In this document: positions 18,904 through 32,714 of the stretch, piece by piece
Layout: each line of letters begins with the position of its first letter
How positions within the stretch are numbered: position 1 is the first letter of the stretch
Assembly (NCBI GenBank): GCA_031278175.1
Contig: JAITLB010000257.1
Coordinates: forward strand, 1 to 35,563
Origin: Christensenellaceae bacterium
GTDB lineage: Bacteria; Bacillota; Clostridia; Christensenellales; DTU072
Direction of reading: 5' to 3'
Length of the DNA stretch: 35,563 bases
Notes under the pieces: model-generated
The model's database searches: none
What the model was told of the DNA's origin: nothing
The model's input: only the letters and a program-made list of their open reading frames with translations
Program-made: the position numbers and the translations under genes

Positions 18904-19122
18904 TTAACTTGTGTTTTAGCATTAAGTTATTTGTAGAACACAATTAGCAAAATCTGTCGCAACGGATGAATCGTGAGTCACTATGACCACGAAACGCTAC
19001 GGTGGGCTACATCGAATGTAAAGCTCGCGGACGCATGATAAGACCCAACGAAATCTTTAAACGTTAGGCAATGTGGAAGAAGCGAGAACTATATCTTGAA
19101 GTTATATACGGAGAGTTAAAGA
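18904..19122 (+). promoter_or_regulatory. structured rplC-rplD intergenic RNA (candidate r-protein leader / cis-regulator)
   Basis: Consecutive hairpins: TTGTGTT/AACACAA (18909/18937); ATCTGT-CGCA-ACGGAT (18952-18967); TCGTG-a-GTCA-cta-TGAC-CACGA (18971-18992); GTGGGC-TACAT-cga-ATGTA-aa-GCTCGC (about 19003-19028); CCAACG/CGTTaGG (about 19045-19068). No ORF of useful length. Confidence 0.6.
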
Positions 19123-19746
19123 ATGATTAATATAGACGTATTAAACACGGAGTCGCAAATAGTCGGTAAACTCGAGCTTTCAGAGGAAATTTTCGGGAAG
19201 ACATATAACAGTGCTCTTATTCACCAAGTGATAGTTGCACAACTTGCCAACAAGCGACAAGGGACAAAAAGCACATTAACGCGAACTGAAGTTAGAGGCG
19301 GCGGTATTAAACCGTGGAGACAAAAGGGAACAGGCAGAGCGAGACAAGGTAGTATCCGCGCACCACAATGGATTAAGGGTGGTGTAGTATTTGCTCCAAA
19401 GCCTAGAGACTTTTCAAAGAAAATAAACAAGCGCATGAAGCAAGCGGCACTGTTCAGTGCTCTTAGTCGCAAATTAGTCGATGGAAATATAATTGTGCTT
19501 GATAAGTTCGAAATAGCTGATCCGAAGACAAAGTTGGTAGCGAAAATCCTAAAAAAACTCGGATTAGAGAAATCAACGTACCTTTACACTGACACCGAAA
19601 ATGCTGATTTGTGTAGAGCAGGGCGCAACATTCAAAATCTTGAAATAGTCAATGTTGATTTAATTAACGTATATGACATCGTCCGAGCTGGCAAGTGCGT
19701 TTTTACGGAGAACGCCATTAAGAAACTAATGGAGGCATACGCATAA
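19123..19746 (+). CDS. rplD: 50S ribosomal protein L4
   Basis: KRQGTKSTLTRTEVRGGGIKPWRQKGTGRARQGSIRAPQWIKGGVVFAPKPRDF. Confidence 0.98.
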   Translation: MINIDVLNTESQIVGKLELSEEIFGKTYNSALIHQVIVAQLANKRQGTKSTLTRTEVRGGGIKPWRQKGTGRARQGSIRAPQWIKGGVVFAPKPRDFSKKINKRMKQAALFSALSRKLVDGNIIVLDKFEIADPKTKLVAKILKKLGLEKSTYLYTDTENADLCRAGRNIQNLEIVNVDLINVYDIVRAGKCVFTENAIKKLMEAYA

Positions 19747-25325: not shown

Positions 25326-25868
25326 ATGTCCAGAATAGGAAGATTGCCTATAAAGTTAAATGCTGGAATAGCTGCTGATTTTAAGGATCGCGTGGTTACT
25401 GTTAAAGGACCACAGGGTGTTCTTTCACAAGAAATCGCCAACGATAAGATCAGCATCTCAATAGAAGGCGATGAATTGAAAGTAGTTCGTTCATCCGAAT
25501 CAAAAGAGGCAAAAGCAGCACATGGTCTTTATAGAGCGTTGATATATAATATGACGGTTGGTGTTGAAAAGGGCTATAGCAAATCTTTAATGATAGCTGG
25601 TGTAGGTTATAAAGCGGTAAACCAAGGTGGAAAGGTAACACTTTCTGTAGGGTATAGTCATACTGTGGATTTGACACCACCAGATGATATTAAGGTTGAA
25701 GTAGTTACACCTACTGAGTTAGTAGTAAAAGGTATTGACAAAGTTAAGGTTGGACAATATGCTGCTGATATAAAAGCTATACGTAAACCTGAACCATATC
25801 ATGGATATGGTATCAGATACAAGGATGAAACCATATTACGTAAAGCTGGTAAGAAAGCAGGCAAGTAA
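25326..25868 (+). CDS. rplF: 50S ribosomal protein L6
   Basis: SRIGRLPIKLNAGI...VTVKGPQGVLS...IRKPEPYHGYGIRYKDETILRKAGKKAGK. Confidence 0.98.
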   Translation: MSRIGRLPIKLNAGIAADFKDRVVTVKGPQGVLSQEIANDKISISIEGDELKVVRSSESKEAKAAHGLYRALIYNMTVGVEKGYSKSLMIAGVGYKAVNQGGKVTLSVGYSHTVDLTPPDDIKVEVVTPTELVVKGIDKVKVGQYAADIKAIRKPEPYHGYGIRYKDETILRKAGKKAGK

Positions 25869-30713: not shown

Positions 30714-30830
30714 ATGAAAGTAAGACCATCGGTAAAACCGATTTGCGATAAGTGCAAAATAATAAAAAGACATGGAAAAGTTATGGTCATCTGCAGCAAA
30801 TACCCTAAGCATAAGCAGACACAGGGTTAG
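30714..30830 (+). CDS. rpmJ: 50S ribosomal protein L36 (zinc-type)
   Basis: [38 protein letters not shown] (38 aa); AAGAGGT upstream; missing from the ORF track because it is short. Confidence 0.96.
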
Positions 30831-30887
30831 ATGCTATAGCATTGTAGTGCCTTGTACTAGAACATTTATAATTAGGTGTTCAAATAT

Positions 30888-30917
30888 TTGCTTTAAAAGG
30901 CAAATTTAAGATATAAT
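30888..30917 (+). promoter_or_regulatory. candidate promoter for the rpsM-rplQ (alpha) transcript
   Basis: TTGCTT (30888-30893), 18-bp spacer, TATAAT (30912-30917) in the 189-bp rpmJ-rpsM gap. Confidence 0.5.
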
Positions 30918-30953
30918 TAAAAAATTGTGCAATCTTCCGAGAGAGCGGCTGTC

Positions 30954-30991
30954 CGGTATAACGGATTTCTCCGGAGAAAAACATTATACCG
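30954..30991 (+). promoter_or_regulatory. stem-loop in the rpsM 5' leader
   Basis: CGGTATAA / TTATACCG 8-bp stem enclosing CGGA-TTTC-TCCG. Confidence 0.5.
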
Positions 30992-31019
30992 AAACAAAAT
31001 ATTTTGGAGGTTTAACTAA

Positions 31020-31799: not shown

Positions 31800-32090
31800 T
31801 TTTAGACAACCACAAAGTGTGTTTTATTAAGACAGTGTTTGCGTGGTTAAGAGAAATGAATATAAAGCGTTTAACTAGCAAGTTCACTTAGAATGATTTG
31901 TCTGTGTTAAAGATCACAACTTCAATTTCTCATTAACTTGAAGTTTAAAGATAAATACCAAAATTTTACCTGAGGTACAACGATAAGACTAGTGAAATCT
32001 ATAGCACTAGTGAAGTTGGAAAAACAGGAGTCGCAGCTCAAAGATGCCAATAGAACTTTGAGCCAAAATAAGGAAACAGGATATTAAAAT
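31800..32090 (+). promoter_or_regulatory. structured rpsK-rpsD intergenic RNA (candidate S4/rpsD leader)
   Basis: Three strong hairpins: AACTTCAA/TTGAAGTT (31918/31938), ACTAGTG/CACTAGT (31988/32005), GCTCAAAG/CTTTGAGC (32036/32056). rpsD autoregulatory leaders are established in Firmicutes. Confidence 0.65.
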
Positions 32091-32714
32091 ATGGCAAAAT
32101 ATACCGGACCCGTTTGCAAATTATGCAGAAGAGAGGGAGCGAAATTATTTTTAAAAGGCGATAGATGCTACGGACGCCGTTGCGCAATGGAAGGCAGTGC
32201 AATTCCACCTGGACAGCATGGTGGTGCAAGAAAGAAAGCTACTCCTTATAGTGTGCAGTTGCGAGAAAAGCAAAAAGCAAAGAGAGCTTATGGACTGCTA
32301 GAGAAGCAATTTCATATGTACTATGAGAAAGCCGAGAAAATGCGTGGAATAACAGGTGAGAACATGTTTGTTCTTATTGAACGCCGACTAGACAATGTCG
32401 TATATCGCATGGGCATAGGTTCTTCGCGTGCACAGTCAAGGCAAATTGTCAATCACAGACATATCACAGTAAATGGTAACACAGTTGACATTCCTTCTTA
32501 TTTAGTTAAAACAGGCGATATCATTGCTATAAAGGAAACTAAAAGGGAAAAACCCATATTCGTTGAATTGAAAGGCATGAAGCTGAACAATTTACCTAAA
32601 TGGTTGACATTCGACACCACAACATTGAGTGGACAAATTATTGCTTTACCAACTCGCGCAGATTTGGATTTGACTATCTCAGAGCACATGATAGTTGAGT
32701 TGTACTCAAAATAA
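32091..32714 (+). CDS. rpsD: 30S ribosomal protein S4
   Basis: [27 protein letters not shown]...[32 protein letters not shown]. Confidence 0.98.

Follow-up and report, generated by a model that had tools for sequence, protein, structure and literature searches.

The window, i.e., the whole stretch of 35,563 nt analysed here, is contig C4 of a metagenome-assembled genome of a gut bacterium (G000; 2.68 Mb, 275 contigs, 87% complete), and the S10-spc-alpha ribosomal protein cluster is encoded within it. All genomes used in this study are metagenome assemblies, including those of the two sister species, G001 (91% complete) and G002. Two intergenic gaps of the cluster are enlarged in G000 compared with G002, and each contains a structured element upstream of a ribosomal protein gene. 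The features are as follows (start codons were assigned by script; genes of the window are named from NCBIfam matches, and all other downstream genes from their translations).

18904..19122, + strand, enlarged rplC-rplD gap, 219 nt versus 16 nt in G002
18996..19088, + strand, rplD (L4) leader element with upstream hairpin P0 (19000-19014), from covariance models R2 and R3
19024-19028/19082-19086 (P1), 19032-19036/19071-19075 (P2), and 19044-19050/19062-19068 (P3), + strand, helices of the rplD copy, from the sequence and the model alignment
19123..19746, + strand, rplD, ribosomal protein L4 (NCBIfam TIGR03953, E=4e-73)
31800..32090, + strand, enlarged rpsK-rpsD gap, 291 nt versus 18 nt in G002
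31965..32063, + strand, rpsD (S4) leader element, core 31965-32030 (end 60 nt 5′ of the rpsD ATG) plus 3′ hairpin
31969-31972 CCUG pairing with 32025-32028 CAGG, + strand, P1 of the rpsD copy, covarying across copies
31978-31981 CAAC pairing with 32015-32018 GUUG, + strand, P2 of the rpsD copy, from the sequence; P2 covaries in the family
31982..31987, + strand, internal-loop word GAUAAG of the rpsD copy, aligned to UAAGAC of tnpB omegaRNAs
31988..32011, + strand, P3 of the rpsD copy, ACUAGUG-AAAUCUAUAG-CACUAGU, the hairpin originally reported; from the sequence and the covariation of P3 in the family
32019..32024, + strand, internal-loop strand GAAAAA of the rpsD copy (family consensus GAAGAA), from alignments A2 and A5
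32036..32063, + strand, P4 of the rpsD copy, perfect 8-bp hairpin GCUCAAAG/CUUUGAGC, lying 3′ of the core and 5′ of the Shine-Dalgarno sequence
32091..32714, + strand, rpsD, ribosomal protein S4 (NCBIfam NF003717, E=4e-77)

A sequence-only reading of this DNA had described a hairpin upstream of rpsD, another copy upstream of rplD, and two further perfect 8-bp hairpins in the rpsD gap. The hairpin was found at 31982-32024 exactly as described, with GATAAG and a perfect 7-bp stem, ACTAGTG/CACTAGT, around the loop AAATCTATAG; the motif recurs at 19037-19075 in the rplC-rplD gap, and both 8-bp hairpins are present (AACTTCAA/TTGAAGTT at 31918-31945 and GCTCAAAG/CTTTGAGC at 32036-32063). The hairpin at 32036-32063 was reached by none of 200 dinucleotide shuffles. 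The loop word AAATCTWTA alone occurred at chance level (5 found versus 2.45 expected). The combined pattern GATAAG-N3-14-AAATCTWTA gave seven matches in the genome versus none for the reversed control; five of the seven lie within real elements, and two are apparently fortuitous. Pattern matches in contigs C14, C62, and C260 and a weak model match in a coding frame (L181) were rejected as chance. Two more inverted repeats lie 5′ of the rpsD element, ACCAC...GTGGT at about 31809-31847 and the one at 31918-31945, both within DNA absent from the sister species.

Three covariance models were used, whose E-values are rough owing to a shortened calibration. R1 was built from four seed copies of G000 with the rpsD copy left out. 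It recovered the rpsD copy with E=3.3e-7 in a search of the window and with 2.5e-5 in one of the whole genome, although this held-out test is not fully independent with respect to the words GATAAG and AAATCT, because the seeds were chosen for sharing them. R2, trained on leader elements of G000 only and again without the rpsD copy, found this copy with 30.3 bits (E=8e-4 genome-wide), and the rplD copy, which is in the R2 seed, scored 90.5 bits. R3, built solely from elements of G001 and G002, recovered elements of G000, including those of rho (2e-7) and of rplD in the window (2e-4); the leader elements of these species are thus reciprocally related. The rpsD and rplC-rplD copies belong to one RNA family. 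An R1 match at 25550-25620 of the window, within a coding frame and with 11.7 bits, was regarded as chance.

The rpsD element is larger than first reported, since two outer helices surround the hairpin and the 8-bp hairpin at 32036-32063 follows at the 3′ side. Across the family, the architecture consists of an upstream hairpin P0 (consensus CUACGG...CCGGAAGUUACGC), stacked helices P1, P2, and P3 with the internal loops GGA/GAAGAA and UAAGACC, and a terminal hairpin P4. In five aligned copies, P1 and P2 covary and enclose P3, and the strands GGA and GAAGAA and the word GAUAAG are conserved; P1 reads CUCGC/GCGAG, CUCGG/CUGGG, CCCA/UGGG, CCGU/GCGG, and CCUG/CAGG. A hairpin equivalent to P4 follows P1′ in most other copies, and its sequence is free to vary. 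Alignment A5 comprises 15 copies; of its 19 pairs, 15 were changed on both sides, and 36 compensatory cells were counted versus 13.3 in shuffles (0 of 500 shuffles reached this value); the paired fraction fell from 90% to about 30% when registers were slid. The G000 copies have an extended P3 with the conserved apical loop GAAAUYUUUAA. Subfamilies by species were also observed, with a different P3 and a CCAC/GUGG P1 in L269, L273, L277, L281, and L283 of G002 and L264 and L270 of G001.

At least 21 full copies were found in G000 at R1 E<3e-5, with further copies in the two sister species; these counts are based on model searches and samples (0.42 Mb of G000 and 0.74 Mb of G002), and those for the incompletely covered G001 and G002 are lower bounds. 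Four partial copies of G000, consisting of P3 only, likewise lie just 5′ of genes. The seed words are absent from most G000 copies. The downstream genes include rplD, rpsD, rplJ, rplT, rho, the L11 methyltransferase gene, scpA, glgC, and glgA; genes for V-ATPase A and B, a glutamine amidotransferase, a GGGtGRT protein, and a signal peptidase; and genes for a geranylgeranyl-reductase-like flavoprotein, a kinase, lipoproteins, and membrane proteins. No function common to these genes is evident.

This gene list bears on whether the element is an autoregulatory leader of a ribosomal protein (S4 or L4). Like S4 and other ribosomal protein leaders of Firmicutes, it is a structured RNA before ribosomal protein genes, and the copies before rplD and rpsD, and also rplJ and rplT, would suit such a leader. 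Unlike those leaders, it stands before many unrelated genes and has a different origin: non-ribosomal genes follow most copies, and G002 has no element at rplD and rpsD. The S4 leader proposed for comparison did not emerge from Rfam, as cmscan returned no S4 or other leader family at gathering or permissive thresholds. An autoregulatory leader is almost certainly the wrong reading of the element, and as a general explanation it is refuted by the gene list. The rpsD sequence is explained by no known S4 leader, and its family includes the rplD copy at full length. The earlier suggestion that the upstream regions of S4 and L4 share a structured RNA holds, and such sharing is unexpected, but its description as a subdomain of ribosomal protein leaders does not, given the absence of an Rfam match and the many unrelated genes.

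The position of the elements is narrowly defined. All 38 elements listed for G000, G002, and G001 are in sense orientation, which would arise by random orientation about once in 3e11, and the distance from the element to the start codon is 24-78 nt with a median of 53 in these 38. At rplD and rpsD of G000, the extra DNA sits just 5′ of the Shine-Dalgarno sequence, and the two insertion sites lie after TAATTAA / TAGTTTTA. Since the corresponding gaps of G002 are only 16 and 18 nt, copies have been gained or lost between species. Other sites are shared: an element precedes the flavoprotein gene in both G000 and G002, and another precedes a PaaK-like gene in G000 (partial) and G002. In the gap between purA and the beta-galactosidase gene, the element aligns throughout between G001 and G002, while the upstream intergenic DNA does not; therefore, the element has been kept there as an RNA. 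As judged from this comparison, selection has preserved a leader-positioned element in at least one place.

A near-canonical omegaRNA right end with a GTCAA terminus and without tnpB was observed in G002 (L282, 1526-1605, minus strand of G002:C92), in sense orientation and 72 nt 5′ of a lipoprotein gene. This relic is plausibly an evolutionary intermediate between a transposon end and a leader element. Functionless relics of non-autonomous transposons (MITE-like or palindrome-associated), which a transposase supplied in trans had inserted next to genes, would account for this relic, for the insertions just 5′ of the Shine-Dalgarno sequence, and for the difference in copies between the sister species. 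However, MITEs and palindrome-associated elements occur as near-identical copies in both orientations, whereas here the copies are strongly diverged and yet have compensated helices, and all 38 are in sense orientation at a narrow distance from the start codon. The conservation at an orthologous site within an unalignable flank also argues against such relics, and we consider this explanation unlikely.

Outside the genus, the only strong R1 matches were repeats in G093 at the 3′ end of a tnpB gene. When R2 was run on 40 genomes, it matched, outside the genus, tnpB omegaRNAs in G088 (E=2e-7), G017, G022, G093, and G059 (E values of 2e-7 to 6e-5); additional matches at E<0.05 were one in G011, with a similar flank, and a weak, chance-like one in G093, and no match was found in 31 other genomes of the family. 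In G017 and G022, the TnpB stop codon (C-terminus ...HGRDDNAAMNILNEGLRLLST*) precedes the start of the R2 match by approximately 10 nt, and the terminal hairpin, GTTCAA, and a varying flank come after the match. On contig C95 of G017 and in G059, the match overlaps the 3′ end of the tnpB frame. Leader elements and omegaRNAs could be aligned end to end, ACUACUGUAGGGACUACAGGAAGUUACGCCUAUGGAG...GUCUAUGAAGUAGGAA of G017 corresponding to CUACGG...CCGGAAGUUACGCCCGUGGACAC...GUGGAAGAAGCGGGAA. Weak R1 matches in G033, G060, G023, G050, G029, G015, G006, and G080 were not counted as members of the family; a search of a subset of them with R2 gave none.

The element shares with the omegaRNA of IS200/IS605 TnpBs such as that of ISDra2 the P0 hairpin, the GGAAGUUACGC linker, P1, the GGA/GAAGA internal loop, P2, UAAGACC, P3, and P1′, followed by GAA and the terminal hairpin. 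These alignments and model matches show homology between the element and the omegaRNA scaffold that TnpB transposons carry. Unlike omegaRNAs, the leader elements are not beside tnpB, have neither a transposon right end nor a guide, and are followed by a Shine-Dalgarno sequence and a start codon; their P4 sequence is variable, and the extended P3 of the G000 elements has its own conserved loop, which is absent from omegaRNAs. In all six omegaRNAs examined, the P0 loop is paired to the right end, forming the omegaRNA pseudoknot with the pre-guide end. In the G001 and G002 elements, a possible counterpart, P0-loop pairing just 3′ of P1′, was reached by 0 of 2000 shuffled loops but by 341 of 5000 permutations, and in the G000 elements, a pseudoknot of the P0 loop with the downstream leader was not supported. 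The RAGATH-18 RNA family, which turned out to be the IS607 TnpB scaffold (reRNA; PMC11061315), is likewise a conserved RNA of the TnpB guide-scaffold type, but our elements had no Rfam match at permissive thresholds.

PF07282, covering the RuvC-III and zinc ribbon region of TnpB, had no match in G000, G001, or G002. The sole TnpB-like gene found in G000 (PF01385) has an intact frame encoding 259 aa (C183:1443-2219, minus strand; L241) and sits upstream of a lepA-like gene; its GC content by codon position is 0.45/0.38/0.30. The protein, a single sequence known from G000, matches NCBIfam IS200_TnpB (NF038281, E=3e-45, profile positions 2-249 of 360) and aligns to residues 6-261 of ISDra2 TnpB. 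It stops after the RuvC alpha2 helix and thus contains no RuvC-II glutamate, RuvC-III, or zinc ribbon, and its RuvC-I strand is degenerate. In ISDra2 TnpB, contacts to the omegaRNA are made by the WED domain and by helices alpha1-alpha2 of RuvC, with D191, E278, and D361 as the catalytic residues (PMC10097598). From these positions, the 259-aa protein keeps most RNA-binding surfaces but is without two of the three catalytic residues. Its nearest full relatives in the searched set are the TnpBs of G022 and G088 (31-32% identity), two genomes in which omegaRNAs were recognised by R2.

In G002, a 65-aa ORF with a Shine-Dalgarno sequence lies between two ABC-transporter genes (L230, 1498-1695; G002:C2) and matches the omegaRNA-binding alpha1-alpha2 segment only (E=2.3e-9 in 0.74 Mb); no N-terminal TnpB half was found beside it. 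Common to the remnants of G000 and G002 is the omegaRNA-binding segment, and their ends fall at almost one position. No TnpB remnant was found in G001, although elements are present there, and so a partnership of the element with the remnant is only suggested. In the related genome G003 (L200-L228 and L229-L240), there were approximately 26 PF07282 matches, nearly all broken by stops or truncated; these TnpB fragments represent a large extinct burst of an IS605-type transposon.

Since nuclease-less proteins of TnpB origin with RNA-guided DNA binding do exist, as TldRs show (PMC13418256), the elements could be working guide RNAs of a TldR-like protein, with the guide read from the gene start. 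TldRs, which derive from TnpB, act as RNA-guided repressors and have lost catalysis with no apparent loss of guide RNA or DNA binding (PMC13418256; its reference 5). The scaffold homology and the nuclease-less TnpB of G000 fit this description, as TldRs are also domesticated TnpBs without nuclease that have an omegaRNA-type scaffold. Unlike TldRs, however, the 259-aa protein has no RuvC-II, RuvC-III, or zinc ribbon, its second half being gone, and the scaffolds are many and located in mRNA leaders. Furthermore, no R1 match was found in L241 beside the gene of this protein, which thus has no adjoining scaffold, and neither a conserved right end nor a pre-guide segment is present 3′ of P4. We regard working guide RNAs as very improbable.

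The element descended from an omegaRNA scaffold of TnpB transposons of the IS200/IS605 type, and intact TnpB was lost from the genus. We propose that copies of the scaffold were distributed and retained as 5′ leaders, approximately 50 nt 5′ of the start codons of ordinary genes, at least two dozen in number. In the most likely mechanism, the element would fold in the mRNA leader and act in cis on the initiation or stability of the same message. A nuclease-less TnpB remnant (259 aa in G000 and 65 aa in G002) that retains omegaRNA-binding parts probably binds the element. The terminal hairpin of an omegaRNA is directly followed by the guide, a place that is occupied here by the Shine-Dalgarno sequence and the start codon; a bound protein could cover or expose both. 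Because of this position, the simplest hypothesis is control of translation initiation, whether or not the TnpB remnant takes part. The origin, position, and conservation of the element are shown, and the regulatory role, the direction of the effect, and the remnant as the partner are what we infer. On balance, we lean towards exapted omegaRNA scaffolds that may act as cis 5′ leaders, possibly bound by a truncated TnpB. Points against this reading are that searches of G001 found elements but no remnant, that the downstream genes have no evident function in common, that the G000 elements do not support the omegaRNA pseudoknot, and that copies come and go between species at rplD and rpsD, as expected of mobile DNA.

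The same leader might also act as an RNA alone, i.e., as a stabiliser, a ribosome standby site, a translation enhancer, or a ligand-sensing leader, with the TnpB remnants being unrelated leftovers. The elements of G001, where no remnant was detected, are consistent with this, as is the apical loop GAAAUYUUUAA of G000; being conserved yet absent from omegaRNAs, this loop indicates that the RNA has a new constraint of its own. Against it, each of the sole TnpB pieces that remain in G000 and G002 holds the omegaRNA-binding segment, and the two break off at almost one position; we think an RNA acting alone rather unlikely, though the best of the alternatives. A bolder form of the preferred reading with exapted, possibly TnpB-bound leaders is that the TnpB-omegaRNA pair may have turned into a dispersed post-transcriptional system, with portable 5′ leaders on dozens of mRNAs and an RNA-binding truncated TnpB as the regulator, having no guide or DNA target; we hold this to be quite possible, if somewhat short of probable.

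To our knowledge, the known fates of TnpB (Cas12 and TldR) all retain the RNA-guided principle. No report of omegaRNA scaffolds as mRNA leaders was found in the literature searched, mostly open-access journal papers. If the proposal is true, it would describe a route from transposon RNA to regulatory RNA, in which a guide scaffold spread as an mRNA leader motif and the RNA-binding half of TnpB was employed without DNA targeting; omegaRNA-like structures would then be no sure mark of a transposon or a guide.

Elsewhere in the window, an AT-rich stretch resembling a promoter is found in the rpmJ-rpsM gap (30811-31019), together with a long, imperfect hairpin (GGTATAA...TTATACC) 5′ of rpsM, which is a different element.
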